This document shows, piece by piece, positions 2,768 to 17,338 of a stretch of 64,000 nucleotides of DNA (position 1 is the stretch's first letter; every line of letters begins with the position of its first letter). Under the pieces are notes generated by a model. The model was not told the origin of the DNA, made no database searches, and saw nothing but the letters and a program-made list of their open reading frames with translations. Origin of the DNA: a virus; the IMG/VR virus record IMGVR_UViG_3300025435_000010, positions 1 to 64,000 of that record, one strand, 5' to 3'. A program made the position numbers and the translations under genes.

Positions 2768-2960
2768 TTCGAATATATGTTTTCGACTCCTACTCAAGGA
2801 GCTTTTCCCTCGTAGCCAGAAATTAACGGTCGTTCTTATTGTATAACATTCGAGCAATAACTAGTGAGGTTAACAAACAAACAGCTAACAATAAACAATC
2901 GTTCTGATTCATACAAAAATATTATAGATACTTAAAAAGTTATCAAGCAGAAAATTCTGC

Positions 2961-2989
2961 TTGTGGTTCCTATTTGTTTGAGCCATAAT
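2961..2989 (+). promoter_or_regulatory. leaderless cassette promoter for gene 2996
   Basis: TTGTGG, 17-bp spacer, CATAAT, then AATAGT and ATG at 2996. The predicted +1 is the A of the ATG. Confidence 0.75.
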
Positions 2990-2995
2990 AATAGT

Positions 2996-3466
2996 ATGAA
3001 AAATAAAAACAACGTCAACGATATTATTCTAACTTTTACTAATACTGGAAAGCTTCCGACAAAGTATATTACCTGTACAAAGTGTAACGCCGAAGTTACA
3101 GCCTTTGGAAGTAACCTTGAAGGTAAGATTAAGAAGTTCGGAACTCTCTTTAATCTTCTTACAACTTTTGAGTGCCGGAAGTGTGTGTCAGCTTCCAAAC
3201 CTAAGAAGGAGAAGAAGATCTCTGTTCGGATTATGAAGCGGGAGAAGAAAGAGGAGATTAAGAACTATGAGATTCCTAAGATGAAGTGGAGTATCCCGCG
3301 GAACGTTTTTCTTAAAGACGCTCCTGATCTTATCGAGGATCATACAAAGCATAGTTGCGCTGCTCCTCAGCTCTTTCTCAACAACGGACGGAATTGCGAT
3401 GGATGCGCTTTTTGGAATAACTGTCAGTGTCCGATTAAGACTGCTAACGAATTTGCTGCAAAATAA
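2996..3466 (+). CDS. zinc-ribbon protein with C-terminal Cys cluster
   Basis: 156 residues. Start chosen at the cassette ATG giving MKNKNN. A zinc ribbon (C27, C30, C60, C63) surrounds FGSNLEGKIKKFG...LLTTF. The C-terminus has a second cluster of five Cys (HSCAAP...CDGCAFWNNCQC) that could hold zinc or an Fe-S cluster. The core is paralogous to the protein at 12296-12640, which has lost most ribbon cysteines. Function unknown, probably regulatory or nucleic-acid binding. Confidence 0.8.
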   Translation: MKNKNNVNDIILTFTNTGKLPTKYITCTKCNAEVTAFGSNLEGKIKKFGTLFNLLTTFECRKCVSASKPKKEKKISVRIMKREKKEEIKNYEIPKMKWSIPRNVFLKDAPDLIEDHTKHSCAAPQLFLNNGRNCDGCAFWNNCQCPIKTANEFAAK

Positions 3467-3467
3467 T

Positions 3468-3629
3468 ATGCAATACAAACTCGCTTATTTTATTATTTGG
3501 TCCTACAGACTTCTCTTTAAGGTAGGTACATACGATCATTATAGGCTTACGTACTTACTTGAGGATATTAACGAAGAAGAGTATCGTTATAGTATTTCTA
3601 AACTTCTAAATAGAACCTGGGACATTTAA
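3468..3629 (+). CDS. small hypothetical protein
   Basis: 53 residues, aromatic-rich (MQYKLAYFIIWSYRLLFKVG). The start is set by the TAATATG junction with the upstream stop. A possible peripheral membrane helix lies at residues 4-20. No family recognised. Confidence 0.6.
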   Translation: MQYKLAYFIIWSYRLLFKVGTYDHYRLTYLLEDINEEEYRYSISKLLNRTWDI

Positions 3630-3630
3630 T

Positions 3631-4017
3631 ATGAACAGATACAAAGTATATATTGCTAAACTAAAGAGAACAAATACTATTCCCCGTGTTGTTCTAAAGA
3701 TAGGCATTACATCCTCTTCGGATGCTATGGATAGGCTTACTTACAAGGGAGCTGATGAATTATATCCTATTTCCAATTACTTTTCTGATATTAAGATTAT
3801 GAAAACATCTCAGAGAATTTACTCTAAAGAAGAGGCAGAGAGTATTGAAGCCTATATTATGCAAAGTATTAAGGGATCTGATTTATATTTTCATAATTGG
3901 AGAGAACCAGATCAAATCTCTGGTATTACAGAGATGCGTACTTGGAACTACGATGAGTTTCTCAAGGCAGTAGATCTACTAAAACAAGCTTGTAGTTCCC
4001 AGCCTGTTCATACATAA
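3631..4017 (+). CDS. GIY-YIG-like (T5orf172/MUG113-type) protein
   Basis: 128 residues. YKVYIAKLK...VVLKIGITSSSDAMDRL resembles the first strands of GIY-YIG domains of the T5orf172/MUG113 type, followed by RIYSKEEAESIEAYI where a catalytic Glu would sit. Linked to the upstream gene by TAATATG. Possibly a small nuclease; the assignment is by pattern. Confidence 0.55.
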   Translation: MNRYKVYIAKLKRTNTIPRVVLKIGITSSSDAMDRLTYKGADELYPISNYFSDIKIMKTSQRIYSKEEAESIEAYIMQSIKGSDLYFHNWREPDQISGITEMRTWNYDEFLKAVDLLKQACSSQPVHT

Positions 4018-4036
4018 TCCTTTTATCAATTAAATT

Positions 4037-4369
4037 ATGGGTGCGTACATCTACAGACTAAAAGGAACAAAAGCTTTTGAAGAGCTTACTATTGAAGGTA
4101 AGAAGGAAAAGGTCTACGATTACGTTTACTGGTACAAGCCCTATTACACAGGTCTTTACGAGAAGGAACCTAAATGGATGAAGCCTATTAAGATGCTTGA
4201 TGCCAGACTCCGTAAGGCTTTTGAGAAGGTCGAGCCTGTCAAGTGGGTTCGTCATGTTAATGAAGGGGGCGTTAAGGATGACGAGATCATTGAATGGCCT
4301 GGTGGTATTTGTATTAGTGATTACAACGAGCGTTATCAGACTGCTCGGAGAATTTCGATTAAAAAATAA
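4037..4369 (+). CDS. hypothetical protein
   Basis: 110 residues, rich in Lys, Tyr and Trp (YDYVYWYKPYYTGLYEK). No Cys cluster, membrane segment or known motif. Followed by a TAATATG junction, so cotranscribed with 4371-4790. Confidence 0.65.
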   Translation: MGAYIYRLKGTKAFEELTIEGKKEKVYDYVYWYKPYYTGLYEKEPKWMKPIKMLDARLRKAFEKVEPVKWVRHVNEGGVKDDEIIEWPGGICISDYNERYQTARRISIKK

Positions 4370-4370
4370 T

Positions 4371-4790
4371 ATGTTAAAGAGAGATAATTGGACTACAGCT
4401 GAAGCAATCAACATTATTAAAGGTGGGACAATTGCATGGTGTAGTGAAGGTGGAGACATAGAAGACAATCCAGACTATTACGCAAACCTTGATCGTAACA
4501 AAGGTATCTATAAAGTTATTGAGAGTGTTAAAGGGTGGGATAGGGAGATTTGGACTAATGACGAATTGATTGAATTTCTTGATGAAGCAAAAATTCGTGT
4601 CAAGATGGATGATGCAAAAACTTGGTCCAAAGCTGAATATGACTCTGTAGTAGAGTACAATCATGGTCTTGAATGTAGTATTATTCAACTCTGGGATCTT
4701 AAAGCAAATCCAGAAGAGTCTTATAGTGCTATGGCTTTAGATACAGAGACAGGACAAATTGTAGTTATCAGTTCACCGCTTCCTCAATAA
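4371..4790 (+). CDS. acidic hypothetical protein
   Basis: 139 residues. The start at MLKRDNWTT is set by the TAATATG junction. The N-terminal NWTTAEAINIIKGG and the predicted alternating helix and strand suggest a small globular cytoplasmic protein. No recognisable family. Confidence 0.7.
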   Translation: MLKRDNWTTAEAINIIKGGTIAWCSEGGDIEDNPDYYANLDRNKGIYKVIESVKGWDREIWTNDELIEFLDEAKIRVKMDDAKTWSKAEYDSVVEYNHGLECSIIQLWDLKANPEESYSAMALDTETGQIVVISSPLPQ

Positions 4791-4795
4791 TCTTC

Positions 4796-4824
4796 TTGCA
4801 CTATTCAGCTCGTTCATACATAAT
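4796..4824 (+). promoter_or_regulatory. leaderless cassette promoter for ORF 4831
   Basis: TTGCAC, 17 bp, CATAAT, ACTTGT, ATG 4831. Confidence 0.7.
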
Positions 4825-4830
4825 ACTTGT

Positions 4831-4866
4831 ATGAAGAATAAATCAACCCTAACCCCAACTAAGTAA
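4831..4866 (+). CDS. 11-residue leaderless ORF (possible leader peptide)
   Basis: The cassette ATG opens MKNKSTLTPTK and stops at 4864-4866, four bases before the ATG of the membrane protein at 4871. The cassette N-terminus is kept but the body is missing. It may act as a leader ORF delivering ribosomes to the next start, or be the stump of a lost gene. Confidence 0.5.
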   Translation: MKNKSTLTPTK

Positions 4867-4870
4867 CCCC

Positions 4871-5044
4871 ATGTCAACATACTCAAAAATTATTGCTTTT
4901 ACCTCGTTCTTTAACATCCTATTCTGTACCTTTGAACTCGGTCGGATCTCAGCAGGTGGTCAAATGTCCTTGCTTTCAACTCTTATCATTGCTGTAATCT
5001 CTATAGCTTCAATGGTCGATGCCTTCTCTACTCCATCAAAGTAA
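4871..5044 (+). CDS. 57-residue membrane protein
   Basis: MSTYSKIIAFTSFF start; two hydrophobic segments at about residues 6-24 and 34-51 separated by ELGRISAGGQ. No own promoter, so it relies on the cassette promoter and leader ORF upstream. A TAATATG junction leads to the next gene. Confidence 0.6.
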   Translation: MSTYSKIIAFTSFFNILFCTFELGRISAGGQMSLLSTLIIAVISIASMVDAFSTPSK

Positions 5045-5045
5045 T

Positions 5046-5216
5046 ATGGAACCAACACTACTAACCGAAACTATAGATCCTAATAAATGTGTAGGAGCTG
5101 TACATGATTGTAAGAATCCTGCTACCTGCTCCGTTAATCATCGTACTCTTGGTGATATAAGAGTATGTGAAGCCTGTAAAGTTATTGTAGAGAATCTAAA
5201 CTATGAATCTAACTGA
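5046..5216 (+). CDS. small Cys-rich zinc-binding protein
   Basis: 56 residues with C15, C22, C28, H32, C41 and C44 (pattern C-x6-C-x5-C-x3-H-x8-C-x2-C), enough for one zinc site. The start is fixed by TAATATG. Overlaps the next gene by 14 bases. Function unknown. Confidence 0.65.
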   Translation: MEPTLLTETIDPNKCVGAVHDCKNPATCSVNHRTLGDIRVCEACKVIVENLNYESN

Positions 5217-5454
5217 ACCAACTCTCCGTAGATCGGAGTTTCGTAAACTATTAAACATTCGTTGCTGTAATGAATTTGGGCTAGGTTTAATGGATCTTCC
5301 TGATATTATCTGTATTGATGATGTTTATTGGGAGGGTATTACTCTCAAAGAAGCTAATCAAATGATTGATGGATGTATAGATGATATTAAGGACGAGCTT
5401 GGATATACTACTGTACATACGGTTAACGCACCTGTTTACGATATAAACGAATAA
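5203..5454 (+). CDS. acidic hypothetical protein
   Basis: 83 residues, overlapping the upstream gene by 14 bases. Acidic C-terminal half (MIDGCIDDIKDELG). No family recognised. Confidence 0.65.
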   Translation: MNLTEPTLRRSEFRKLLNIRCCNEFGLGLMDLPDIICIDDVYWEGITLKEANQMIDGCIDDIKDELGYTTVHTVNAPVYDINE

Positions 5455-5457
5455 ACT

Positions 5458-5679
5458 ATGAGGACAATTAAACTAAAGGCAACTATCAACTACACTGTTA
5501 ATATCGAACAGATTGTTGAAGTCTCTGAAGAGGATAATCGTAATACACTTCATGAGAAGGCAAAAGAACTAGCTCTAATTGGCATTGAGTCTAATCCTAA
5601 TGTCAGTAGTGAGGTGAGGGAGCTGTACATTGCTGATATCGATTCTGAAGGTAATCCTATTGTCTGGGTTCGACCATAA
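5458..5679 (+). CDS. hypothetical protein
   Basis: 73 residues. N-terminal strands (TIKLKATINYTVNIEQIVEVS) followed by a helix suggest a small alpha/beta protein. Three bases separate it from the upstream stop. Confidence 0.65.
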   Translation: MRTIKLKATINYTVNIEQIVEVSEEDNRNTLHEKAKELALIGIESNPNVSSEVRELYIADIDSEGNPIVWVRP

Positions 5680-5684
5680 TAGGC

Positions 5685-5713
5685 TTGCTACTTCCTTAAA
5701 ATCTATCTATACT
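5685..5713 (+). promoter_or_regulatory. leaderless cassette promoter for gene 5720
   Basis: TTGCTA, 17 bp, TATACT, AATAGT, ATG 5720. Confidence 0.75.
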
Positions 5714-5719
5714 AATAGT

Positions 5720-5944
5720 ATGGAAAATAAGACATATACAAAGAAGCAAATCAACAACTACAAGAATTACGAGATCATTCGTAAGTCTGGAGCATATAAT
5801 ATGTTCTCCTCTCAAGCTCGGCTCTCTACAGGATTAACTAAAGATGAGTATCTATTTGTAATGGAGAACTATAAAGAGCTTAAAGATGTTGCTGCAAGCT
5901 TTGATGCTGATAACTATCTTCTCAAACAAGTAGATCATAACTAA
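5720..5944 (+). CDS. small hypothetical protein (cassette gene)
   Basis: 74 residues from the cassette ATG (MENKTYTKKQINN). Basic N-terminus and helical C-terminus. The longer frame starting at 5630 would run through the promoter and is rejected. Confidence 0.7.
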   Translation: MENKTYTKKQINNYKNYEIIRKSGAYNMFSSQARLSTGLTKDEYLFVMENYKELKDVAASFDADNYLLKQVDHN

Positions 5945-5945
5945 T

Positions 5946-6134
5946 ATGACATACCAAGATCTCATAGATAAGATTCATCTTCTTGGATGTTACAAAGATC
6001 CAGTTAAGCTCATGTCTATGCATACCAATGATGTGTTTAAGATTTCTACTTGGCATGAAGCGAAAGAAAATATACCATATGAAGATATTGAGAAAGATCA
6101 AATTATCTTTGATATTGAACTAAACAACTACTAA
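5946..6134 (+). CDS. small phage protein, MTYQDLIDKI-type
   Basis: 62 residues following a TAATATG junction. The N-terminus resembles those of 156-380 and 8271-8462. Acidic, probably cytoplasmic. Unknown role. Confidence 0.65.
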   Translation: MTYQDLIDKIHLLGCYKDPVKLMSMHTNDVFKISTWHEAKENIPYEDIEKDQIIFDIELNNY

Positions 6135-6162
6135 CATTTTATAAACGATCTAGAAATAGAAT

Positions 6163-6190
6163 GCAAGGAGAGCTTGCTCGGGTCTTTTTT
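6163..6190 (+). terminator. possible weak intrinsic terminator
   Basis: GCAAG-GAGAG-CTTGC forms a 5-bp stem, followed by CGGGTC and a T-run at 6184-6190, downstream of the operon ending at 6134. The stem is short. The rest of 6135-6242 shows nothing I recognise. Confidence 0.4.
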
Positions 6191-6242
6191 AACATAAAAG
6201 TTAATTTTATTAACCTCATTGAACATCTAGATTGTTTTTTTC

Positions 6243-6271
6243 TTGTTGATTCCTAAAACTAAAGCCATAAT
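6243..6271 (+). promoter_or_regulatory. leaderless cassette promoter for gene 6278
   Basis: TTGTTG, 17 bp, CATAAT, AAGCGT, ATG 6278. Confidence 0.7.
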
Positions 6272-6277
6272 AAGCGT

Positions 6278-6430
6278 ATGAAAAATGAAATACCAGAACA
6301 AGTAAAAGCTGAAATCGAAGCTCTCTATATGGAGATTGAAGGCCTAAAGGAGGTCGTTAATAACAATAAAGCTGTTCTTCATGATTTAATTGAAATTCTC
6401 AAGAACGTAAAAATTCCCTATCATGCTTAA
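6278..6430 (+). CDS. 50-residue coiled-coil protein (cassette gene)
   Basis: MKNEIPEQVKAEIEALYMEIE opens a nearly continuous helix with heptad-like Ile/Leu spacing to about residue 44. Overlaps the next start by eight bases, so translation is probably coupled. Confidence 0.65.
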   Translation: MKNEIPEQVKAEIEALYMEIEGLKEVVNNNKAVLHDLIEILKNVKIPYHA

Positions 6431-6635
6431 TCTACAGCCATACGTTGATAAGGTCTGGGCTGCTTCAGACCGAGAGGAGAAGATTAAAGCTCTTACGGAG
6501 ATGGTTAATGCTTCTACAGCTAAGAAACTCACAAAGATTAAAACCCTCCGTGATATGGTTCACATGAGCAATACTCAGTTAGATTTTCTAGCGAGTAACT
6601 ATTCAATGTCTGGAATGGGTATGAAGGTTATTTAA
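6423..6635 (+). CDS. small helical hypothetical protein
   Basis: 70 residues starting inside the 3' end of the preceding gene. Lys-rich central helix (STAKKLTKIKTL). No motif known. Confidence 0.65.
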   Translation: MLNLQPYVDKVWAASDREEKIKALTEMVNASTAKKLTKIKTLRDMVHMSNTQLDFLASNYSMSGMGMKVI

Positions 6636-6641
6636 GATGAT

Positions 6642-6647
6642 TAAATA
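6642..6647 (+). promoter_or_regulatory. late-type TAAATA, 5 nt before GTG 6653
   Basis: TTAAATA, then CCTAT and GTG. Matches the spacing of the late promoters elsewhere. Confidence 0.4.
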
Positions 6648-6652
6648 CCTAT

Positions 6653-6826
6653 GTGCAGGAACAACCTAAGGTAGAACAACTTATAAGCATACTTGAGCAG
6701 ATAGGAAAACCTCCGCTCGTAATCATAGATATTCTATCTAACATAATTAAACAACAAATGATGTATGGAGGTTCTTTAGAAGATAAACTTCAATATCATA
6801 TTGAAACAAATAAAAAAAGCTTGTAA
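6653..6826 (+). CDS. 57-residue GTG-start hypothetical protein
   Basis: Frame from GTG 6653 to TAA 6824-6826 reads MQEQPKVEQLISILEQIGKP, a helical, amphipathic small protein. No ATG is available in frame near the beginning; the GTG lies five bases after TAAATA. Its stop overlaps the -35 of the next cassette. Confidence 0.5.
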   Translation: MQEQPKVEQLISILEQIGKPPLVIIDILSNIIKQQMMYGGSLEDKLQYHIETNKKSL

Positions 6827-6849
6827 CTTCCGATAGAAGCATTCATAAT
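6821..6849 (+). promoter_or_regulatory. leaderless cassette promoter for gene 6856
   Basis: TTGTAA, 17 bp, CATAAT, GAATGT, ATG 6856. Confidence 0.75.
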
Positions 6850-6855
6850 GAATGT

Positions 6856-7050
6856 ATGAAAAATAAAGATACAGAAATTGTTGCTGAATACATTCACGAT
6901 CTTATCATCGAGCATGATGGTAAGGATATTGATACTGCTATCTTTGGCGGTGAAGAATGGATGGTAAAGATGTCAGCTCTTGATCATTCCGCTGTTACTC
7001 TCTCCGGAGGTGAAGGGCGAGTGTTTAGGATTACAGTTGAGGAGATTTAA
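6856..7050 (+). CDS. small hypothetical protein (cassette gene)
   Basis: 64 residues, MKNKDTEIVAEYIHD. Acidic helix followed by beta-prone SAVTLSGGEGRVFRITV. Cotranscribed with the membrane protein after it via TAATATG. Confidence 0.7.
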   Translation: MKNKDTEIVAEYIHDLIIEHDGKDIDTAIFGGEEWMVKMSALDHSAVTLSGGEGRVFRITVEEI

Positions 7051-7051
7051 T

Positions 7052-7330
7052 ATGTACCGCAGATCATTTAAGCACAAGTATTGGTATCCGATATCAGTAG
7101 ACATTGAGAGAACTTTGCGGAAGTTTCGCAGACTTGTAGATCGAACTTATCGAAAGATCTGGCCTTATATTTTTACTGCTTTTATTCTCTTCTGGCTTTT
7201 TATTGCCTATACACGAATGAAGTATGATTACTCACTCATTCATAATTACGCTAATCTTGATACTCCTTTCTCTGACTACTATACAAAGTGGAACACAGAA
7301 GGTAAGCCTGGACAGGACCCTCCAAAGTAA
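7052..7330 (+). CDS. single-span membrane protein
   Basis: 92 residues from the TAATATG junction (MYRRSFKHKYWYP). A basic N-terminal half precedes one transmembrane segment at about residues 43-60 (IFTAFILFWLFIAY), then a polar tail ending GQDPPK. N-in topology is likely. Unknown role. Confidence 0.7.
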   Translation: MYRRSFKHKYWYPISVDIERTLRKFRRLVDRTYRKIWPYIFTAFILFWLFIAYTRMKYDYSLIHNYANLDTPFSDYYTKWNTEGKPGQDPPK

Positions 7331-7333
7331 TTC

Positions 7334-7362
7334 TTGTAATTCCTTTTCGATTTCTTTATACT
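7334..7362 (+). promoter_or_regulatory. leaderless cassette promoter for gene 7369
   Basis: TTGTAA, 17 bp, TATACT, GAATGT, ATG 7369. Confidence 0.78.
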
Positions 7363-7368
7363 GAATGT

Positions 7369-7587
7369 ATGAAAATTGAAACTGACGAAGACATGGTAAC
7401 TACTGATGATATTGTTGAAACTCTCATGGATGCGTATGAAGGATATGCAGACATCAATGATATGAACGCTAAGATTCAAGGAACGTTTGAGGGTCTAGGT
7501 TACCTCACTCGAAATAAAGGATTCACTATTAGGGTTGGTTCTAGGCCTAATGTTCAGGAGTTTCAAGTCACAGTAACACCTCGTTAA
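7369..7587 (+). CDS. small acidic protein (cassette gene)
   Basis: 72 residues, MKIETDEDMVTTDD. Acidic helix first, beta-prone C-terminus (GFTIRVGSRPNVQEFQVTV). No known family. Confidence 0.7.
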   Translation: MKIETDEDMVTTDDIVETLMDAYEGYADINDMNAKIQGTFEGLGYLTRNKGFTIRVGSRPNVQEFQVTVTPR

Positions 7588-7588
7588 T

Positions 7589-7756
7589 ATGACTGAAAAG
7601 ACATTTGAAAAGAAGCACAAACTTCTCTGGTCTCAATATAAGAAGGCTTACACAAAGTCGATTAAACAACAGCAAAAAGCTGACCTTCTTAGGGATGAAG
7701 CTAATAAACTTCACGTCAAAGTCTGGGAGTTAGAAGCGAAATTTGCCAATCAATAA
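7589..7756 (+). CDS. 55-residue basic coiled-coil protein
   Basis: MTEKTFEKKHKLLWSQYKKA continues as a Lys/Gln-rich helix to the end. Start one base after the upstream TAA (TAATATG). The length is below usual gene-calling limits, but the junction supports it. Confidence 0.6.
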   Translation: MTEKTFEKKHKLLWSQYKKAYTKSIKQQQKADLLRDEANKLHVKVWELEAKFANQ

Positions 7757-7758
7757 GC

Positions 7759-7787
7759 TTGAAATTCCTATAGGATTTCTTTATCAT
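7759..7787 (+). promoter_or_regulatory. leaderless cassette promoter for gene 7794
   Basis: TTGAAA, 17 bp, TATCAT, AAGAGT, ATG 7794. Confidence 0.75.
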
Positions 7788-7793
7788 AAGAGT

Positions 7794-7982
7794 ATGAAAA
7801 ATAAAAACGAAGAGTTCATCAGTTGGATTGCCGATTACTTGCATGAGTTGGAATACAAGTACTCTGAGACTTCAGCAGATAGAGAGAAGTTTCTACTAGT
7901 TAATGAGATTTCTGATACCATTAACGAGAAGTATAGTGAGATGGTTCTAGGTCTTCCGTCAGAGTCTGAAGAAGAAGCTTGA
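7794..7982 (+). CDS. small acidic helical protein (cassette gene)
   Basis: 62 residues (MKNKNEEFISWIADYLHELE). The longer frame from 7743 runs through the promoter and is rejected. Its TGA stop (7980-7982) is embedded in the TTGAAA -35 of the next cassette. Confidence 0.7.
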   Translation: MKNKNEEFISWIADYLHELEYKYSETSADREKFLLVNEISDTINEKYSEMVLGLPSESEEEA

Positions 7983-8007
7983 AATTCCTAAGGGATTACC
8001 TTATACT
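7979..8007 (+). promoter_or_regulatory. leaderless cassette promoter for gene 8014
   Basis: TTGAAA, 17 bp, TATACT, GGTAGT, ATG 8014. The -35 contains the upstream stop codon. Confidence 0.8.
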
Positions 8008-8013
8008 GGTAGT

Positions 8014-8265
8014 ATGAAAATTAAGGCATACGAATACAAACAAATGACAGAGGAAGAGCGTTCGATGACTCTCTTCTATACGATCGAGGGAATGGTTGAA
8101 TCTCTTCAAATTATTGGAAATGAGTTAGATACTGAATCTTCGACTGGATGTTCACGCCTAGCTCTTATCTCTGAACTTGAAGAGAAAATTGAAGCCCTTT
8201 ACTCTAGAGTTCACAAGGACTTTGTAGATAACAAAACCAAAAATACAATCACCTACTCCATCTAA
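8014..8265 (+). CDS. small helical protein (cassette gene)
   Basis: 83 residues, MKIKAYEYKQMTEEERSMT. Mostly helical and acidic; no motif recognised. Confidence 0.7.
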   Translation: MKIKAYEYKQMTEEERSMTLFYTIEGMVESLQIIGNELDTESSTGCSRLALISELEEKIEALYSRVHKDFVDNKTKNTITYSI

Positions 8266-8270
8266 AACAT

Positions 8271-8462
8271 ATGACATACAAAGAACTAATCGAAGAACTG
8301 CAGAAGATTCCAGCAGATAGACTTGGAGATACAATTACTGTATACGATCCGGATAGGGATGACTATTGTGGGGTTAATCATATGTCAGTAGCCCTAGATA
8401 ATAACAACGATGTATTGGATGAAGGACATGCCTATTTGGTTCTTCGTTCATATGGATTCTAA
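8271..8462 (+). CDS. small phage protein, MTYKELIEELQ-type
   Basis: 63 residues. Shares the ELIEELQK helix and following TVYDPDRDD with the 156-380 type. Preceded by AACATATG, a recurrent operon start here. The tiny frame 8464-8496 (MNEDFDGLGL) follows but is not called. Confidence 0.7.
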   Translation: MTYKELIEELQKIPADRLGDTITVYDPDRDDYCGVNHMSVALDNNNDVLDEGHAYLVLRSYGF

Positions 8463-8498
8463 CATGAACGAAGACTTTGATGGACTAGGTCTTTAGAC

Positions 8499-8527
8499 TT
8501 GAAATTCCTTTTTGATTCCTTTATACT
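8499..8527 (+). promoter_or_regulatory. leaderless cassette promoter for gene 8534
   Basis: TTGAAA, 17 bp with two ATTCC half-sites, TATACT, AATAGT, ATG 8534; a near-consensus example. Confidence 0.82.
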
Positions 8528-8533
8528 AATAGT

Positions 8534-8800
8534 ATGAAAAAAGCTAAGATTGAGGATGTACTCAATACAATCTCCGAACTTAGTAGAAGGAGGGAAGAAG
8601 GAGACAATCCTTACCGTAAAGTAAACGAACTTCAATCTATTATAGGAAGTACATTAAATGGTGTATATCCTAGCCTTCAGGAAGCTATTAACATTAGATA
8701 CAAGAAGATTAAAGAAGAAGTTGATGGACTAAAACCTATTCGTAAACCTTTTAGTAGCGGGATGGAGGATGAGATGCTCGTAAGAGAGTATGATTGGTAA
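8534..8800 (+). CDS. small hypothetical protein (cassette gene)
   Basis: 88 residues, MKKAKIEDVLNTISELSRRRE. Helical, charged. Shares TL.G.Y...LQ.AIN..Y...K.E.D-like spacing with the protein at 13427-13684, which may be a paralogue. Confidence 0.7.
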   Translation: MKKAKIEDVLNTISELSRRREEGDNPYRKVNELQSIIGSTLNGVYPSLQEAINIRYKKIKEEVDGLKPIRKPFSSGMEDEMLVREYDW

Positions 8801-8809
8801 TAGTAAAGC

Positions 8810-8838
8810 TTGAATTCCTAATAGAATTCCCATATACT
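8810..8838 (+). promoter_or_regulatory. leaderless cassette promoter for gene 8845
   Basis: TTGAAT, 17 bp, TATACT, CATAGT, ATG 8845. Confidence 0.78.
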
Positions 8839-8844
8839 CATAGT

Positions 8845-9096
8845 ATGAAAAATAACAACGACGTTACACACAATTGTAAGAGTGAACTAGTTCTCTGGTT
8901 GGATAACGATCCGTTCTTTCACCAGGAATGGAGAACGACTATTAGAACAGGTAACCTCACATATATTAAAGATGCATTTGAGGAGGCGGGATTTAAGTAC
9001 AGGAAAGATCAGTGGGAAGAGGTAGTGGATCAATTTGAATTTGAACTGAAGGAAGAGGAAGAAAGATTAGATTCCTATTGCAGTATCCTTCAATAG
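8845..9096 (+). CDS. small acidic protein (cassette gene)
   Basis: 83 residues, MKNNNDVTHNCKSELVLWLDN. The acidic C-terminal helix (QFEFELKEEEERLD) ends over the -35 of the next cassette. Upstream frame from 8794 rejected. Confidence 0.7.
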   Translation: MKNNNDVTHNCKSELVLWLDNDPFFHQEWRTTIRTGNLTYIKDAFEEAGFKYRKDQWEEVVDQFEFELKEEEERLDSYCSILQ

Positions 9097-9106
9097 CCTG
9101 TATACT
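9078..9106 (+). promoter_or_regulatory. leaderless cassette promoter for gene 9113
   Basis: TTGCAG, 17 bp, TATACT, AATAGT, ATG 9113; lies inside the end of the previous gene. Confidence 0.75.
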
Positions 9107-9112
9107 AATAGT

Positions 9113-9322
9113 ATGAAAAATAAAGCAACCCTGAAGTCCGACGGCTGGTATATTATCTTTGTTAATGGTGTGGAGGAAGAGCTCCATCTAGCAGCTAACA
9201 CCAATCTTTTCATCTTTGACGAAGAACATGATGGGGAGGGACATGTTGATATGTATCACTGTGAATCTGATGAATTTCAAGGCTCTATTTCACTTGAGCC
9301 TCATCAACTAATTCTAGCTTGA
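9113..9322 (+). CDS. small acidic beta-prone protein (cassette gene)
   Basis: 69 residues, MKNKATLKSDGWYIIFVNGVE. His/Asp/Glu-rich centre (DEEHDGEGHVDMYH). No family known. Confidence 0.7.
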   Translation: MKNKATLKSDGWYIIFVNGVEEELHLAANTNLFIFDEEHDGEGHVDMYHCESDEFQGSISLEPHQLILA

Positions 9323-9347
9323 AATTCCTTTAAGATTCCATCATAAT
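9319..9347 (+). promoter_or_regulatory. leaderless cassette promoter for gene 9354
   Basis: TTGAAA, 17 bp, CATAAT, AATAGT, ATG 9354. Confidence 0.8.
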
Positions 9348-9353
9348 AATAGT

Positions 9354-9545
9354 ATGAAAAATAAGAACACATCAGTAAACGAATACTACGAGAACGTAAC
9401 AACGGCTGCTAAGGTCCTGGAGGAGTACTACGGGAGGCTAACGAAGTTCACTTCTAGTGAAGAGCGAAAGAAGGAGTATAATACCTTTAGACGTGAGATG
9501 AGAGATTTGTGGAAGACTCATGCGTCGTACGCCTTAGAACAATAA
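9354..9545 (+). CDS. small helical protein (cassette gene)
   Basis: 63 residues, MKNKNTSVNEYYENVTTAAKV. Charged helices; no motif. Confidence 0.7.
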   Translation: MKNKNTSVNEYYENVTTAAKVLEEYYGRLTKFTSSEERKKEYNTFRREMRDLWKTHASYALEQ

Positions 9546-9547
9546 GC

Positions 9548-9576
9548 TTGAAATTCCTTTTGAATTCCTTTATACT
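9548..9576 (+). promoter_or_regulatory. leaderless cassette promoter for gene 9583
   Basis: TTGAAA, 17 bp with two ATTCC half-sites, TATACT, GATAGT, ATG 9583. Confidence 0.82.
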
Positions 9577-9582
9577 GATAGT

Positions 9583-9834
9583 ATGAAAAATAAGAACACC
9601 CTAGTAAAAGAATACTTCTTCGGATATGATTTGAAGAATGTTAAAGCAGTTCAAGACTATGTTCAAAAGACATATAAGGACGAAGTAGATTATGAGATGT
9701 ATGTTGGGTATGGAGACGATGTAATGAACGCTCTAGAAGTCTATAACGAGAGTCTTACTAAGGATATAACATTCCTAGGGCTAGTAAATGAATGCGAAGG
9801 AAGAGGAGAGTTTGAAAGCGAAGACGAGGAATAA
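9583..9834 (+). CDS. small acidic protein (cassette gene)
   Basis: 83 residues, MKNKNTLVKEYFFGYDLKNV; the acidic tail ends ESEDEE. Same first five residues as 9354-9545, but the bodies are unrelated by eye. Confidence 0.7.
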   Translation: MKNKNTLVKEYFFGYDLKNVKAVQDYVQKTYKDEVDYEMYVGYGDDVMNALEVYNESLTKDITFLGLVNECEGRGEFESEDEE

Positions 9835-9836
9835 GC

Positions 9837-9865
9837 TTTAAGTTCCAATCAAATTACAATATACT
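9837..9865 (+). promoter_or_regulatory. leaderless cassette promoter for gene 9872
   Basis: TTTAAG, 17 bp, TATACT, AATAGT, ATG 9872; weakest -35 of the set. Confidence 0.7.
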
Positions 9866-9871
9866 AATAGT

Positions 9872-10093
9872 ATGAAAATTAACGGATACAAGAAAGAGTT
9901 CATGAAAGTAGTAACCTATAGAGTTGAAGACGTCCCGGGTGTAGGAACAGTTATGTATTCAGATTACTACGATGATAACGATAAGATTGTAGATAGTATT
10001 ATGAGAACGGAGGAAGGGTATACAATTGAAGTACCATCAGTTCTAGAAGAAGTTCAGAACTTTATTGATGAAGAGATGAACGTAAAGATCTAA
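9872..10093 (+). CDS. small beta-rich protein (cassette gene)
   Basis: 73 residues, MKINGYKKEFMKVVTYRVED. Alternating strands and acidic turns. Unknown. Confidence 0.7.
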   Translation: MKINGYKKEFMKVVTYRVEDVPGVGTVMYSDYYDDNDKIVDSIMRTEEGYTIEVPSVLEEVQNFIDEEMNVKI

Positions 10094-10099
10094 ACAAAC

Positions 10100-10354
10100 A
10101 TGGAATACAAATTGATTCAATACAAGGATAAGGATCTAGATCTCTTCAATAAAGAGGTTAACGAGTTACTAAAAGATAATTGGAAACTCGAAGGAGACTA
10201 TAGGATTACAACCATTAAGTCAAAGGTAGTAGATAGCTATCTTATCTATAGTCAGGTACTAACTAAGGAAGAAGAGAAGAAAGCTCTAGGATTTAACGTA
10301 CATCTATTAGAGGAAGAGAATAAAAACATAGAGAAAAAGAAGAAAAAGAGTTAG
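10100..10354 (+). CDS. small charged protein with poly-Lys tail
   Basis: 84 residues. YKLIQYKDKDLDLFNKEVNEL and LKDNWKLEGDYRI resemble the DUF1737-type small phage domain by pattern. The C-terminus is a run of Glu/Lys ending KKKKKS. No own promoter; cotranscribed with 9872. Confidence 0.65.
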   Translation: MEYKLIQYKDKDLDLFNKEVNELLKDNWKLEGDYRITTIKSKVVDSYLIYSQVLTKEEEKKALGFNVHLLEEENKNIEKKKKKS

Positions 10355-10742
10355 TTTTTACTAAAAAGAAAAGAAAAGACTAAGAAAGTTAGTCTAGACT
10401 AACATTTAAGTACGAGGAAAGGTAACAATAAGTCGTAGAAGTTCAAACAACGATTAGCCCCGGTTAGTTATTAAAAGCGGGCGGGATTAAAAGAACCCCT
10501 TAGGGAGAACCTGTTGTCCCTAGTCGATAGATAGAGTAGATAGAATATAGAAGGGGATAGAGAAATATAGAAATCCCTAGGAATCTCCAAAGAAAGAGGG
10601 AAAGAGCTGTTAGAGCTTGTTTATAGCCGTTCAAAGCCGTTCGAGCTCGTATAAACTGTAGCACATCCCACCTCCGTTCAGGAACTTCTAGCGTTATCTC
10701 CGAGCTACAAACTGCAACATCTACGGCAAAAACGGTTTCTTC
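10355..10742. other. 388-base gene-free region with palindrome and repeats
   Basis: No convincing ORF. It holds GACTAA (10378-10383), TTAGTC (10389-10394) and GACTAA (10396-10401), allowing two alternative hairpins, and the 16-bp palindrome at 10388-10403. Near 10610-10660 there are direct repeats: GAGCTTGTTTATA and GAGCTCGTATA flanking two GCCGTTC. It may contain a terminator or attenuator and possibly a small RNA. Confidence 0.45.
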
Positions 10743-10771
10743 TTGCGTTCCAGCCCAGAAACCCATATACT
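10743..10771 (+). promoter_or_regulatory. near-leaderless promoter for gene 10781
   Basis: TTGCGT, 17 bp, TATACT, nine bases, ATG 10781; predicted leader about three bases. Confidence 0.65.
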
Positions 10772-10780
10772 GTATAGATA

Positions 10781-10993
10781 ATGACGACTACACCCAACTA
10801 CTACGATTGTTTTATTGACTCCGTTCTTAGTCTTCCACCGAAGCTCCGAATGAGCATCCTTAAGGGTGCAGGTACCGGGTGTACGGACAACAACCCCTAT
10901 CTCTACCTCTGGAACCACTATAGTGATCTAGATAGTGAGATCGGTCAATTCCTCCATGCTATTCTAGATGAGTACAACCTTGCCCTTGACTAA
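10781..10993 (+). CDS. small hypothetical protein
   Basis: 70 residues, MTTTPNYYDCFIDSVLSLPPK. Mixed alpha/beta, three Cys without a clear metal pattern. Own promoter. The next start follows its stop by one base. Confidence 0.65.
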   Translation: MTTTPNYYDCFIDSVLSLPPKLRMSILKGAGTGCTDNNPYLYLWNHYSDLDSEIGQFLHAILDEYNLALD

Positions 10994-10994
10994 G

Positions 10995-11171
10995 ATGAAG
11001 AAATTTATTAAAAATCCCTATGCTTACTTCCTATCTAAACTCGGATATAAGTACGTTCCTAACTCACCAATTTTAACCTACTTAACTCGATTTTCTAACT
11101 CTACTTACTTTGAAGATAGAATGAATAACAATGACCTAGATAGGTATACTTACAAGCTTTATTCTCTATAG
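10995..11171 (+). CDS. small basic hypothetical protein
   Basis: 58 residues from the ATG one base after the upstream stop (MKKFIKNPYAYFLSKLGYK). An in-frame ATG at 10968 would overlap the upstream gene by 26 bases and is less likely. Confidence 0.6.
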   Translation: MKKFIKNPYAYFLSKLGYKYVPNSPILTYLTRFSNSTYFEDRMNNNDLDRYTYKLYSL

Positions 11172-11423
11172 TTATTATCCATACTCCTCTAGAAGGTGCT
11201 AGCAGGAACTTTGTTAAGCCGATGTTAAATTAATCAAAGTTCCTGACGTTAGATTGATGTTAGTGCATCTAGGTAGGGTCAGCTAACAAACGTAGCAAAG
11301 TATTACCTTCTCTTCGAGCTGTTTTCCTCTCCTAGGTCCCTGCTCAACGACCTCTTCTTTATTATCCATTCAGTATATAGAGATTCAGAAGGAACTACAA
11401 GCGGAATCTGAAAAACTTTCCTC
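11172..11423. other. gene-free region with a strong hairpin
   Basis: About 250 bases without an ORF. CAGGAACTTTG (11203-11213) and CAAAGTTCCTG (11235-11245) form a perfect 11-bp stem with a 21-base loop. Near 11382-11410 TTCAGA pairs with TCTGAA. The GGAAC/GTTCC content recalls the RTTCC half-sites of the cassette promoters. Could be a structured RNA, terminator or operator. Confidence 0.45.
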
Positions 11424-11452
11424 TTGAGTTCCTCTGAATGTTCCGCCATAAT
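11424..11452 (+). promoter_or_regulatory. leaderless cassette promoter for gene 11459
   Basis: TTGAGT, 17 bp, CATAAT, GAATGT, ATG 11459. Confidence 0.75.
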
Positions 11453-11458
11453 GAATGT

Positions 11459-11554
11459 ATGAAAAATAAGAACAGCACAACCAAGATCAAGAATCAGAAA
11501 ACCGGAAAATATGTTGATATCAACAAAGTTCCGGTTTCAGCGTTCTTTGAATAG
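11459..11554 (+). CDS. 31-residue basic peptide (cassette gene)
   Basis: MKNKNSTTKIKNQKTGKYVD opens a 31-residue basic peptide ending SAFFE. Short, but it has a full cassette promoter and a stop just before the next cassette. Confidence 0.6.
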   Translation: MKNKNSTTKIKNQKTGKYVDINKVPVSAFFE

Positions 11555-11556
11555 GC

Positions 11557-11585
11557 TTGAATGTTTCTAATCCTTCCATCATAAT
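11557..11585 (+). promoter_or_regulatory. leaderless cassette promoter for gene 11592
   Basis: TTGAAT, 17 bp, CATAAT, AAAATT, ATG 11592. Confidence 0.75.
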
Positions 11586-11591
11586 AAAATT

Positions 11592-11858
11592 ATGAAAAAT
11601 ACAATAGAGGAACAGAATTATTCAATTGCAAGCAAAGAGGCTATTAATGCAGGTGATGATGTAGCTTTTTACAGTTTTCAGCTATCTCATCTCACTGAGA
11701 ACTTACCTATTAAAATTGTTTTGAAAAAGATTGGCAATCTTGAAATTCTTAACAAGATTGATAAGGCTAAGAAACAACTTAAACAAGCTGAAAAGCTGCT
11801 AGTTCTTGCTAAAGCCAAAGAGAGAGCAGCTTGGGCAGCTTTGCAAATGCAGGCTTGA
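11592..11858 (+). CDS. helical protein with Lys/Ala coiled-coil tail (cassette gene)
   Basis: 88 residues, MKNTIEEQNYSIASKEAINA. The C-terminal half (KIDKAKKQLKQAEKLLVLAK) is a strongly predicted coiled coil. Unknown partner. Confidence 0.7.
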   Translation: MKNTIEEQNYSIASKEAINAGDDVAFYSFQLSHLTENLPIKIVLKKIGNLEILNKIDKAKKQLKQAEKLLVLAKAKERAAWAALQMQA

Positions 11859-11883
11859 AGTTCCTTTTAGAATCCCTTATACT
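11855..11883 (+). promoter_or_regulatory. leaderless cassette promoter for gene 11890
   Basis: TTGAAG, 17 bp, TATACT, AATGGT, ATG 11890; overlaps the upstream stop. Confidence 0.78.
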
Positions 11884-11889
11884 AATGGT

Positions 11890-12069
11890 ATGAAACTTGA
11901 TAGAATGATTGGCAATTGTACTATGGAAGATGTTGTAGAAGATATCTTTGGAAGCGTTAGTGAGTTCGCCCGCCTTGTAGAAGAGAACGGAGATGAATTT
12001 CTATATAAGAATTCTATAGTTGTCAAATACGACGAAGATAATGATGTTCATTATTTCTTCGAGCTTTAA
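11890..12069 (+). CDS. small acidic protein (cassette gene)
   Basis: 59 residues, MKLDRMIGNCTMEDVVEDIF. Acidic, ends VHYFFEL. The longer frame from 11806 is read through the promoter and rejected. Confidence 0.7.
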   Translation: MKLDRMIGNCTMEDVVEDIFGSVSEFARLVEENGDEFLYKNSIVVKYDEDNDVHYFFEL

Positions 12070-12072
12070 GCC

Positions 12073-12101
12073 TTGAAGTTCCAACCAAAATCAAATATAC
12101 T
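12073..12101 (+). promoter_or_regulatory. leaderless cassette promoter for gene 12108
   Basis: TTGAAG, 17 bp, TATACT, AATAGT, ATG 12108. Confidence 0.78.
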
Positions 12102-12107
12102 AATAGT

Positions 12108-12215
12108 ATGAAAAATAAGAACATCGTAACTAACCCAATCAACCTTCCCTTCCTCTTTGCTACGACTTTGATTGTAGTGATTAACGTAATAGCGTTCGCT
12201 TTGATGCCTCGATAA
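12108..12215 (+). CDS. 35-residue single-span membrane peptide, copy A
   Basis: MKNKN leader, then NPINL, a transmembrane segment (FATTLIVVINVIAFAL) and MPR at the end. Near-identical in plan to the peptide at 13277-13384. Two conserved copies argue that it is a real product; such peptides often act on membrane complexes. Confidence 0.72.
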   Translation: MKNKNIVTNPINLPFLFATTLIVVINVIAFALMPR

Positions 12216-12220
12216 AAGGC

Positions 12221-12249
12221 TTGAGGTTCCTTTAAAGATCAGACATAAT
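12221..12249 (+). promoter_or_regulatory. cassette-type promoter with a long leader, for gene 12296
   Basis: TTGAGG, 17 bp, CATAAT. Unlike the others, the ATG is 46 bases after the -10. The predicted 40-base leader (12256-12295) consists mainly of CAA units and lacks a Shine-Dalgarno site. Confidence 0.7.
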
Positions 12250-12295
12250 AGAAGAGTAGAATAAGTCAAACAACAACAACCAACAACAAACTAAA

Positions 12296-12640
12296 ATGAA
12301 CAAAAATACAACCCCAATTGAAGTCATCGAGTATCTTACTAACTACTTCGAGACGTTTGGCAACTTGCCTGTTCCAGTCATCGAATGCCAGGCTTCAGGT
12401 ACTGCCTTCACCTGCTTCGGAACTAACCTCAAAAATAAGATTGAGAAGTTCGGCGGAATTAAGGAGCTTCTTACCACGTTTACTGGACGTGGAGTAGTGA
12501 AGAAGACTACGACTAAGGTCGAGGTTAAGGAGGAGACTCCAACTACTGTAGAGGCAACGATCACTAAGCGTTCACGTCCTAGCCGTTCGAAGGCTGCAAT
12601 TGCCGAGCGTCAAGCAGCTCAGGTCGAAGTCCAAGCCTAA
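12296..12640 (+). CDS. paralogue of the 2996 zinc-ribbon protein with lost zinc ligands
   Basis: 114 residues. FGNLPVPVIECQ...CFGTNLKNKIEKFGG...LLTTF aligns with the ribbon region of 2996-3466, but the CxxC pairs are reduced to single Cys. The tail is Thr/Val/Lys-rich and basic (KRSRPSRSKAAIAERQAAQ), fitting nucleic-acid binding. The only cassette-type gene with a real leader, so perhaps highly expressed. Confidence 0.75.
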   Translation: MNKNTTPIEVIEYLTNYFETFGNLPVPVIECQASGTAFTCFGTNLKNKIEKFGGIKELLTTFTGRGVVKKTTTKVEVKEETPTTVEATITKRSRPSRSKAAIAERQAAQVEVQA

Positions 12641-12666
12641 AACCTAACCCATTAACATATACTAAT

Positions 12667-12888
12667 ATGAAGATTGATTATCGTAAAGGCCCGATGGCTA
12701 AGTCACCAAAGCTTGCCAACATTCTCCACGACTTAACAATTGGTGAGACGTTTGTAACTTCAAATCCTGATGCCCGAAGGATGGCAAACTCCCTCTCCAG
12801 GGCTTCAAAGAAGTACGGAACCAGACTTACTACACTGTCGTTAGGTAATGGATTTACGCTTGTAGAAGCGATTCGTTACAATAGTTAA
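12667..12888 (+). CDS. small basic hypothetical protein
   Basis: 73 residues, MKIDYRKGPMAKSPKLANIL. GETFVTSNPDARRMANSLSRASKKYG suggests a small helical, possibly nucleic-acid-contacting domain. Downstream of 12296 without a clear promoter. Confidence 0.65.
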   Translation: MKIDYRKGPMAKSPKLANILHDLTIGETFVTSNPDARRMANSLSRASKKYGTRLTTLSLGNGFTLVEAIRYNS

Positions 12889-12904
12889 TTCAGGCTTGGG
12901 ATAA

Positions 12905-12935
12905 GGAGGTGGAGGTGTTTTGGCCCTCCACCTCC
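12905..12935 (+). terminator. strong hairpin, probable terminator or RNA processing site
   Basis: GGAGGTGGAGG (12905-12915) pairs perfectly with CCTCCACCTCC (12925-12935) around a nine-base loop, just after the stop of 12667-12888. No clear T-run follows, so it may protect a 3' end instead. The left arm resembles a Shine-Dalgarno sequence but no start codon follows. Confidence 0.5.
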
Positions 12936-12947
12936 AAACCTTTCCGC

Positions 12948-12976
12948 TTGTAGTTCCCTTCAAATTCCCTTATACT
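12948..12976 (+). promoter_or_regulatory. leaderless cassette promoter for gene 12983
   Basis: TTGTAG, 17 bp, TATACT, AATAGT, ATG 12983. Confidence 0.78.
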
Positions 12977-12982
12977 AATAGT

Positions 12983-13237
12983 ATGAAAAATAAGAACAAC
13001 GCAATGTACATACTGGCTGGCAACTTGGGTTATGATGGAGATGTTACCTTGGGAGTTTACTCCTCGGAAGCTGGAGCTAAAGAGGCTGCAGTTAACTATG
13101 AGAAGGCTCTAAAGAATGATACGGAGAATGACTTAACTGACTTCAACGGTGAGTATCTGATTACAGTAATGAATTTGGATAATGCTGCAACTGATGAGAA
13201 GTTTTTGAGGTCTTCTAACATTAACTTCAAGCTGTAA
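12983..13237 (+). CDS. small hypothetical protein (cassette gene)
   Basis: 84 residues, MKNKNNAMYILAGNLGYDGD. GVYSSEAGAKEAAVNYEKAL looks like a small alpha/beta fold. Upstream frame from 12920 rejected. Confidence 0.7.
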   Translation: MKNKNNAMYILAGNLGYDGDVTLGVYSSEAGAKEAAVNYEKALKNDTENDLTDFNGEYLITVMNLDNAATDEKFLRSSNINFKL

Positions 13238-13241
13238 AGGC

Positions 13242-13270
13242 TTGACCATCCCCAGAAGTTCCTTTATACT
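13242..13270 (+). promoter_or_regulatory. leaderless cassette promoter for gene 13277
   Basis: TTGACC, 17 bp, TATACT, GATTGT, ATG 13277. Confidence 0.8.
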
Positions 13271-13276
13271 GATTGT

Positions 13277-13384
13277 ATGAAAAATAAGAACAACGTAAAC
13301 AATCCAATCAATCTCTGGATCCTGGCTGCTAGCTCACTAGTGGTTGTAATTAACATAGTAGCTTTTGCTTTGATGCCTAGATAG
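13277..13384 (+). CDS. 35-residue single-span membrane peptide, copy B
   Basis: Same length and layout as 12108-12215: MKNKNNVNNPINL, transmembrane segment with VVVINIVAFAL, ending MPR. The two differ mainly in the first half of the membrane span. Confidence 0.72.
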   Translation: MKNKNNVNNPINLWILAASSLVVVINIVAFALMPR

Positions 13385-13391
13385 AAGAGAC

Positions 13392-13420
13392 TTGAAGTTC
13401 CAATCAAATTCCCTTATACT
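13392..13420 (+). promoter_or_regulatory. leaderless cassette promoter for gene 13427
   Basis: TTGAAG, 17 bp, TATACT, GATAGT, ATG 13427. Confidence 0.8.
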
Positions 13421-13426
13421 GATAGT

Positions 13427-13684
13427 ATGAAAAATAAGAACAACGTAACGAACAGAACGGTATCAGAGCTTGTAGACCTCATTTGTGAGCTCCAGACAAA
13501 GAAGGGTAATGGAGACTTCAAACATTCATATGCATTGGGTACAGTGCAGGCCATCTTAGATTGGCACGTTAAGGGCTATACAACTGACCTTCAGGGAACG
13601 ATTAACGATTCATATAACAATGTAAAGAAAGAGATGGATACTTTTGAACCGCTAACAGCAGTCACCGACTACCCAACAGACTAA
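13427..13684 (+). CDS. small hypothetical protein (cassette gene)
   Basis: 85 residues, MKNKNNVTNRTVSELVDLIC. Helical. Similar spacing of LQ-x-INDSYNNVKKEMD to 8534-8800. A TAATATG junction to the next gene. Confidence 0.7.
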   Translation: MKNKNNVTNRTVSELVDLICELQTKKGNGDFKHSYALGTVQAILDWHVKGYTTDLQGTINDSYNNVKKEMDTFEPLTAVTDYPTD

Positions 13685-17332: not shown

Positions 17333-17338
17333 CTCTAT

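Follow-up and report, generated by a model that had tools for sequence, protein, structure and literature searches.

The first 64,000 bases of the 131,144-bp IMG/VR virus record IMGVR_UViG_3300025435_000010, hereafter the window, come from a T4-like phage and carry, on the plus strand between 2961 and 13441, an array of 21 copies of an element of about 50 bp in which a sigma70-type promoter leads with constant spacing into a start codon and the first codons of a gene. Outside mycobacteria, Deinococcus-Thermus and archaea, mRNAs without a leader are generally regarded as minor exceptions. Here we consider it very likely that the array is a set of early-gene cassettes, each of which yields a leaderless mRNA from its own element joining promoter, transcription start (+1), start codon and first codons, and that it is one part of a wider leaderless regime in this clade of phages.

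Results

The array and its promoter geometry

A preliminary description of this DNA had claimed 21 start codons, each behind a promoter with a spacer of 17 bp and a -10 box six bases away, and this geometry is indeed present at all 21 sites, which follow the pattern TTGnnn-N17-[TC]AT[AC][ACT]T-N6-ATG. The -35 was said to be mostly TTGNNN; it begins with TTG at 20 sites, the exception being that before the ATG at 9872 (TTT), while the -10 is TATACT in 13 copies, CATAAT in 7 and TATCAT in 1. The sites, listed from the -35 to codon 5 with the open reading frame (ORF) that each one leads, are as follows.

2961–3010, plus strand: module 1, ORF 2996–3466 (156 aa)
4796–4845, plus strand: module 2, only an 11-codon ORF 4831–4866, ahead of gene 4871–5044
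5685–5734, plus strand: module 3, ORF 5720–5944
6243–6292, plus strand: module 4, ORF 6278–6430
6821–6870, plus strand: module 5, ORF 6856–7050
7334–7383, plus strand: module 6, ORF 7369–7587
7759–7808, plus strand: module 7, ORF 7794–7982
7979–8028, plus strand: module 8, ORF 8014–8265; upstream TGA stop (7980–7982) within its -35 TTGA
8499–8548, plus strand: module 9, ORF 8534–8800
8810–8859, plus strand: module 10, ORF 8845–9096
9078–9127, plus strand: module 11, ORF 9113–9322
9319–9368, plus strand: module 12, ORF 9354–9545; upstream TGA stop (9320–9322) within its -35 TTGA
9548–9597, plus strand: module 13, ORF 9583–9834
9837–9886, plus strand: module 14 (-35 TTTAAG), ORF 9872–10093
11424–11473, plus strand: module 15, 31-aa ORF from 11459
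11557–11606, plus strand: module 16, ORF 11592–11858
11855–11904, plus strand: module 17, ORF 11890–12069
12073–12122, plus strand: module 18, 35-aa membrane-type ORF from 12108
12948–12997, plus strand: module 19, ORF 12983–13237
13242–13291, plus strand: module 20, 35-aa membrane-type ORF from 13277, paralog of that at 12108
13392–13441, plus strand: module 21, ORF 13427–13684

Such an arrangement is far beyond chance, since the strict pattern occurs 20 times in 2901–13500, whereas 1000 dinucleotide-preserving shuffles contain it 0.012 times on average and never more than once. When the whole contig was scanned for TTG-N20 followed by a -10, the distance to ATG showed a single peak at six bases (21 sites), with no other offset above 5. 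A repeat finder working without any promoter assumption returned a 47-nt direct repeat in 21 copies, namely 20 of the sites plus an ATG-less copy at 12219, and placed the copy at 4831 in a sister family (D3). The earlier statement that most genes continue as ATGAAAAATAAGAAC was too strong, for this is exact in 7 of the 21 and 14 start with ATGAAAAAT. The array region also contains genes without a module, degenerate copies (3990, 10743) and one intact module promoter without an ATG (12221). Module 2 is peculiar in that its ORF, MKNKSTLTPTK*, stops 4 nt short of the real gene, whose ATG is at 4871, and the homologous site in a related contig (G007; locus L151 at 805) has no ATG, so the segment 4796–4870 is possibly a case of start-codon decay or a leader peptide. 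Pfam and PHROGs give almost no functional assignment for the array proteins.

Constancy of the six-base spacing in relatives

The search of related phages that had been proposed finds TTG-N20-TATACT-N6-ATGAAAAATAA exactly in 46 IMG/VR stretches. On ten array contigs (G000–G007, G009 and G012; loci L146–L153 and L030) we collected 148 module-led ORFs belonging to 84 sequence families. The major capsid protein (MCP) of the five array contigs tested (G001, G002, G003, G005, G012) is 68–84% identical to that of this phage, thus the arrays belong to one clade. Because the search pattern itself required the six bases, promoter matches not identical to it were counted separately, and among these 97, from about 20 array loci, the ATG lies at six bases in 63, at seven in 4 and at nine in 2. 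Orthologs of module genes were also collected by tblastn with no requirement on the promoter; at least 107 of their sites have a module at offset six, a lower bound because AATAGT contains TAA and TAG and some modules, several with CTG for TTG, were thereby mislabelled as coupled. In 106 ortholog pairs with a module in both members, the identity at variable promoter positions has a median of 0.54 and falls to 0.27, near chance, while the 17-bp spacer and the six bases are kept; module 7 shows the same geometry as its ortholog in G007 at only 27% identity of these positions.

Differently built promoters, either with a TGTG-extended -10 or of the type TTGACA-N17-TATAAT, also place the ATG six bases after the -10 in L054 (3377–5325), L033, L048, L023, L027 and L041, the spacing holding for all 5 matches in L054 and all 3 in L033. 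These contigs possibly represent independent origins of leaderless arrays.

Anatomy of the module

Over 143 aligned modules, the base before the start codon is T (94%) or C (6%) and +1 is A, hence the start codon sits on a pyrimidine-purine (T-A) initiator. The six bases from -6 to -1 are conserved as AATAGT, and two TTCC boxes are conserved at about -29 to -26 and -18 to -15, that is 11 bp or one helical turn apart; being conserved over the clade within the promoter spacer, they are a possible binding site of an early-gene regulator. In 110 of 134 cases the gene upstream ends within the module or fewer than 20 nt ahead of its -35, and in 27 its stop codon is the TGA of the -35 TTGA; a single element of about 50 bp thus frequently ends one gene as well as starting the following one. 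Most modules leave no space for a terminator, and no terminator-like site was found on the plus strand of the array.

The conservation does not end at the start codon but runs continuously from -36 to about +15, and it fixes bases which the protein does not need. Among the 148 ORFs, lysine at codon 2 is AAA rather than AAG by 113:5 against 247:569 further into the same genes (p = 1e-45), asparagine at codon 3 is AAT rather than AAC by 99:0 against 296:253 (p = 2e-24), and asparagine at codon 5 makes the opposite choice to codon 3, with AAC:AAT at 59:2 (p = 2e-16); lysine at codon 4 shows no third-base bias. When the matches to the search pattern are left out, the remaining 95 modules agree, with AAA 63 and AAG 5 at codon 2 and AAT 50 at codon 3, where AAC is absent from the six commonest codons. 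Where N-terminal codons are replaced, the T in third position stays, as in AAT to ATT. Folding of the first 36 nt is weak, with a mean energy of -0.94 kcal/mol as compared with -5.69 for nt 46–81 of the same genes. The third-base fixation together with the weak 5' folding indicates that the conserved unit is DNA or RNA from -36 to about +15. The view of promoter, start and first codons as a single module is thereby supported, as it is by the likeness of modules on unrelated genes within a genome.

This likeness is measurable: promoters of unrelated genes score 0.531 within a genome as against 0.466 between genomes, a difference reached by 0 of 1000 label shuffles, and promoters of homologous genes between genomes score 0.538, about equal to those of unrelated genes within one genome. 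Gene families, moreover, are ordered differently among the array contigs. Both observations fit exchange or conversion between modules, to which base composition could contribute. As to the idea that the module travels, the differing gene order and ortholog promoters speak for it, while movement as such is deduced only from these patterns.

Shine-Dalgarno signals, late promoters and coupled genes

There is no Shine-Dalgarno enrichment in this phage, a match of at least 4 nt being found at 20.2% of first ATGs (163 ORFs) and at 20.4% of all ATGs. The late promoters show a spacing equivalent to that of the modules. A TATAAATA-type box and a homolog of gp55 (72152–72763 of the contig) are the marks of T4-type late transcription, and both are found here. 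In T4 the late box lies mostly 20–30 nt before the ATG and leaves a leader, whereas here it lies at 5–7 nt, for instance at the following sites.

17327–17341, plus strand: late promoter TAAATA, 6 nt before ATG 17339
19954–19967, plus strand: late promoter TAAATA, 5 nt before ATG 19965
24688–24701, plus strand: late promoter TAAATA, 5 nt before ATG 24699
36674–36687, minus strand: late promoter TAAATA, 5 nt before ATG 36676 (gp21-like protease)
38241–38254, minus strand: late promoter TAAATA, 5 nt before ATG 38243
59430–59443, plus strand: late promoter TAAATA, 5 nt before ATG 59441
21103–21140, plus strand: possible middle-type promoter TTGATT-N17-TATAAT-N6-ATG, ATG 21138

Boxes at 5–7 nt outnumber those at 15–35 nt before ATG by 32:10 in this phage and by 206:74 in the relatives; the same counts, over about 50 kb each, are 1:18 in T4, 1:10 in Syn19, 1:13 in Melnitz-3, 2:4 in HTVC008M and 1:5 in RM378. 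In 80 loci with a relative of the MCP (889 kb), the distance from TAAATA to ATG peaks at 5 (150), 6 (51) and 7 (29), and a TAAATA at 5–7 nt is found at least once in 48 of the 51 relative loci that measure 8 kb or more. The base before the ATG at 160 TAAATA starts of offset 5 is T (75%) or C (19%). The T4 late promoter, a TATA box of 8 bp, lies about one turn upstream of the transcription start (PMC2988020), so +1 of the TAAATA promoters would again fall on the ATG. The few promoters resembling TTGATT-N16-17-TATAAT, located 6–8 nt before ATG, are perhaps a middle class.

By strict rules, and taking the first ATG as the start codon of non-module genes, we count among 163 genes 53 whose promoter is spaced for a leaderless start and 43 that begin at the stop of the preceding gene. 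The corresponding numbers of genes with a leaderless-distance promoter are 0 of 52 in T4, 1 of 56 in Syn19, 3 of 53 in HTVC008M and 1 of 57 in Melnitz-3.

A leadered family and a predicted minus-strand RNA

Two further promoters of the module type lie in the array region and are not fused to an ATG.

12221–12295, plus strand: module promoter without ATG at +1, then a CAA-rich leader of about 40 nt and gene 12296–12640
11205–11400, minus strand: module-type promoter (11400–11372) and a predicted structured non-coding RNA (ncRNA) at about 11365–11205, its 3' end being a prediction

The CAA-rich leader, of about 40–50 nt, precedes members of the gene-12296 family in at least five other contigs (G001, twice, G004, G005, G007 and G009) and also in L036; sites of the family are L146 4467 and 6527, L151 8038, L153 8704 on the minus strand, and the G004 and G005 arrays. 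Its proteins share the signature ..PxEVIEYL..VIEC..FGTNLKNKIEK.., and gene 2996 of the window, a relative of the family, is module-led. Leaders of 4–14 nt were not seen in Lactococcus (PMC10986495); with a CAA-leader class beside ATG-fused modules, leaders in this phage are likewise either absent or long.

The ncRNA-like element is conserved and intergenic at L146 (about 2828, minus strand), L149 (about 9128, minus), L150 (about 7804, plus), L153 (about 9645, plus) and L047 (about 10045, plus). Its first hairpin is formed around UGAGCAG, with stem pairs varying on both sides (UA/AU/CG), and it has no Rfam match.

Discussion

Probable leaderless expression and its alternatives

The claim that the mRNAs of the array are leaderless gains support from the six-base spacing of modules which were not used for finding the contigs and from orthologs whose promoters have diverged to near chance, and further from the T-A initiator, the lack of a Shine-Dalgarno signal and the late promoters, which are of another sequence class, at equivalent distance. 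On this basis, the host sigma70 polymerase would read each module early in infection and initiate on the A of the AUG, and ribosomes would load on the 5'-terminal AUG rather than at a Shine-Dalgarno sequence, aided by the A-rich, unstructured first five codons. Many of the genes with no promoter of their own begin at the preceding stop codon and might be served by termination-reinitiation. Internal cistrons without Shine-Dalgarno sequences are probably reachable only in this stop-start way, which would be why each unrelated small gene has its own module. Later, the gp55-type holoenzyme would make leaderless late mRNAs, and one gene family would use the CAA-rich leader instead. Much of the protein synthesis of this phage thus probably takes the leaderless route. 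A bS21-like ribosomal protein is encoded in three array contigs (G001 167052, G002 15868, G005 190766). A phage translation factor as the cause was considered and set aside, bS21 being found in 3 of 7 related records and not in this (possibly incomplete) contig.

Several points weigh against leaderless expression. The strict rules leave 63 of 163 genes with neither a promoter nor coupling, in part owing to the use of the first ATG as the start; some relatives show a modest Shine-Dalgarno enrichment (60 of 671 against a background of 3.5%); and TAAATA-N5-ATG sites are scarce in two of the arrays (G003, G012). Given their common ancestry, the modules cannot count as 148 independent observations, and the function of the -10 and the position of +1 are deduced from the sequences of a phage with an unassigned host. 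Finally, as terminators are lacking, these ORFs would also be present on read-through transcripts, behind long 5' regions.

The last point also belongs to a simpler explanation, in which ordinary strong early promoters were squeezed onto the start codon by scarce space and short leaders or read-through feed ordinary translation. The close upstream stops (110 of 134 within the module or under 20 nt from its -35) and the lack of forward-strand terminators, which makes read-through likely, would suit it; but crowding would give varied distances instead of the single value of six seen even in modules of low identity, the sole intact promoter without an ATG precedes a long CAA-rich leader and not a random short one, the late promoters keep an equal distance often with room to spare, and there is no Shine-Dalgarno sequence for ordinary translation to use. 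We regard this explanation as improbable. Repeated early-promoter/stem-loop (PeSL) cassettes offer another, namely a mobile promoter-terminator system with shuffling as its main role and the leaderless starts as incidental. In its favour are a T4-like phage with hypervariable small early genes, the gene order that varies between relatives, and modules on unrelated genes that are more alike within a genome (0.531 against 0.466, 0 of 1000 shuffles). The terminator stem-loop that gives such cassettes their name is missing, with no room in most modules and none on the plus strand, and the late genes share the spacing without sharing the module, which leaves this account unlikely, though with a real share of the probability.

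The common M-K-[NI]-K-[N] beginning of many unrelated small proteins might suggest that MKNKN is a protein tag for targeting or stability which the promoters merely accompany. Such a tag would not need third bases fixed against the genes' own preference (113:5 at Lys2, 99:0 at Asn3, 59:2 at Asn5), replacements that retain the third-base T, or conservation unbroken from -36 to about +15, and we hold it to be highly improbable. The hexamers might likewise not be of sigma70 type at all, a phage or host factor yet to be named reading the TTCC boxes 11 bp apart and transcription starting elsewhere. Conservation of TTCC at -29 to -26 and -18 to -15 does exceed what sigma70 needs; yet TTG, the 17-bp spacer, the TATAAT-like box and the T-A initiator all match sigma70, and at the minus-strand ncRNA-like locus the conserved sequence begins near the predicted +1 of the promoter. 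This too seems quite improbable.

Beyond the array, leaderless expression may reach further. We lean slightly towards the wider reading that an uncultivated, widespread T4-like clade has switched its whole programme to translation from 5'-terminal AUGs, through early and late (perhaps also middle) promoters, reinitiation and exchangeable modules.

The phage and its neighbouring genes

The window has a GC content of 36.5%. By tblastn the phage encodes homologs of gp17, gp18, gp19, gp21, gp43, gp44, gp46, gp47, gp55 and UvsW, and its place among T4-like phages (straboviruses and relatives) rests on homologs of gp17, gp18, gp20, gp21, gp23, gp43, gp44, gp46/47 and gp55. No close isolate was found: among the best-scoring named phages (INPHARED) the best identity is 32% for the MCP and 37% for the portal, and matches of these proteins to T4-type phages do not exceed about 32–37%. 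The MCP is long (515 aa). RM378 has been named as the only Far-T4 isolate (Roux 2015); in portal and sheath it is more distant than Syn19 or HTVC008M. Compared with one genome per GTDB species, the MCP has only two relatives, both in metagenome-assembled genomes at 28–30% identity, for which reason a host assignment from this search was dropped. The 603-aa product of 22827–24638 has no relative that we found among named phages.

A long run of genes on the minus strand (44671–56812) resembles, by eye, sugar nucleotidyl- and glycosyl-transferases and methyltransferases, and genes of the queuosine pathway (QueC, QueF by Pfam) lie elsewhere in the contig. ORF 2055–2756 has a C2H2-like zinc finger at its start and adjoins tRNA-Asn and tRNA-Gln; the scanned protein set gave one C2H2 match plus homing/HNH endonuclease matches, not tied to individual proteins.

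Relation to known systems and significance

Leaderless phage transcripts, TA-led bacterial genes and PeSL cassettes with stem-loops are already known. PeSL cassettes reportedly go back to Arbiol (2010) and Comeau (2014). They are described as repeated between genes of T4-type phages and linked to gene shuffling (PMC4503421); the likeness to them lies in sigma70-type early promoters repeated between small hypervariable genes of T4-like phages, and the difference in that our unit has no stem-loop terminator, keeps a fixed distance from promoter to ATG and extends through the ATG and about five codons. Most middle and late transcripts of Thermus phage phiYS40 are reported to be leaderless (PMC3594737). 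The two are alike as phages with leaderless transcripts, measured in phiYS40 and predicted here; what differs is that early and late genes of a T4-like clade are concerned here, with a repeated module of promoter and start codon. In bacteria, leaderless genes are recognised by TA-like signals some 10 bp ahead of the start codon (Zheng 2011, PMC3160421), and Deinococcus-Thermus has leaderless genes with a '-10 adjacent to ORF' (PMC12340547). The modules resemble such TA-led genes in their sharp -10-like signal about 10–12 bp before the start codon without a Shine-Dalgarno sequence, and are unlike them in belonging to a phage, in the full -35 and -10 at fixed spacing, in the conserved spacer boxes and first codons, and in the gp55-type late use. 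A literature search, covering mostly work outside subscription journals, gave no paper that by its title and abstract deals with leaderless promoters of T4-like phages, and the Far-T4 paper makes no mention of promoters.

If leaderless expression holds true, the geometry would provide a sequence rule for locating transcript starts and correcting start codons in many uncultivated phage genomes, as well as a compact expression element, and the phage would be a natural system for studying how ribosomes are guided to 5' AUGs. The need of each small early gene for a promoter of its own would be accounted for as well. If the whole programme has been switched in this way, it would imply hosts, or ribosomes modified by the phage, that favour leaderless initiation during infection.

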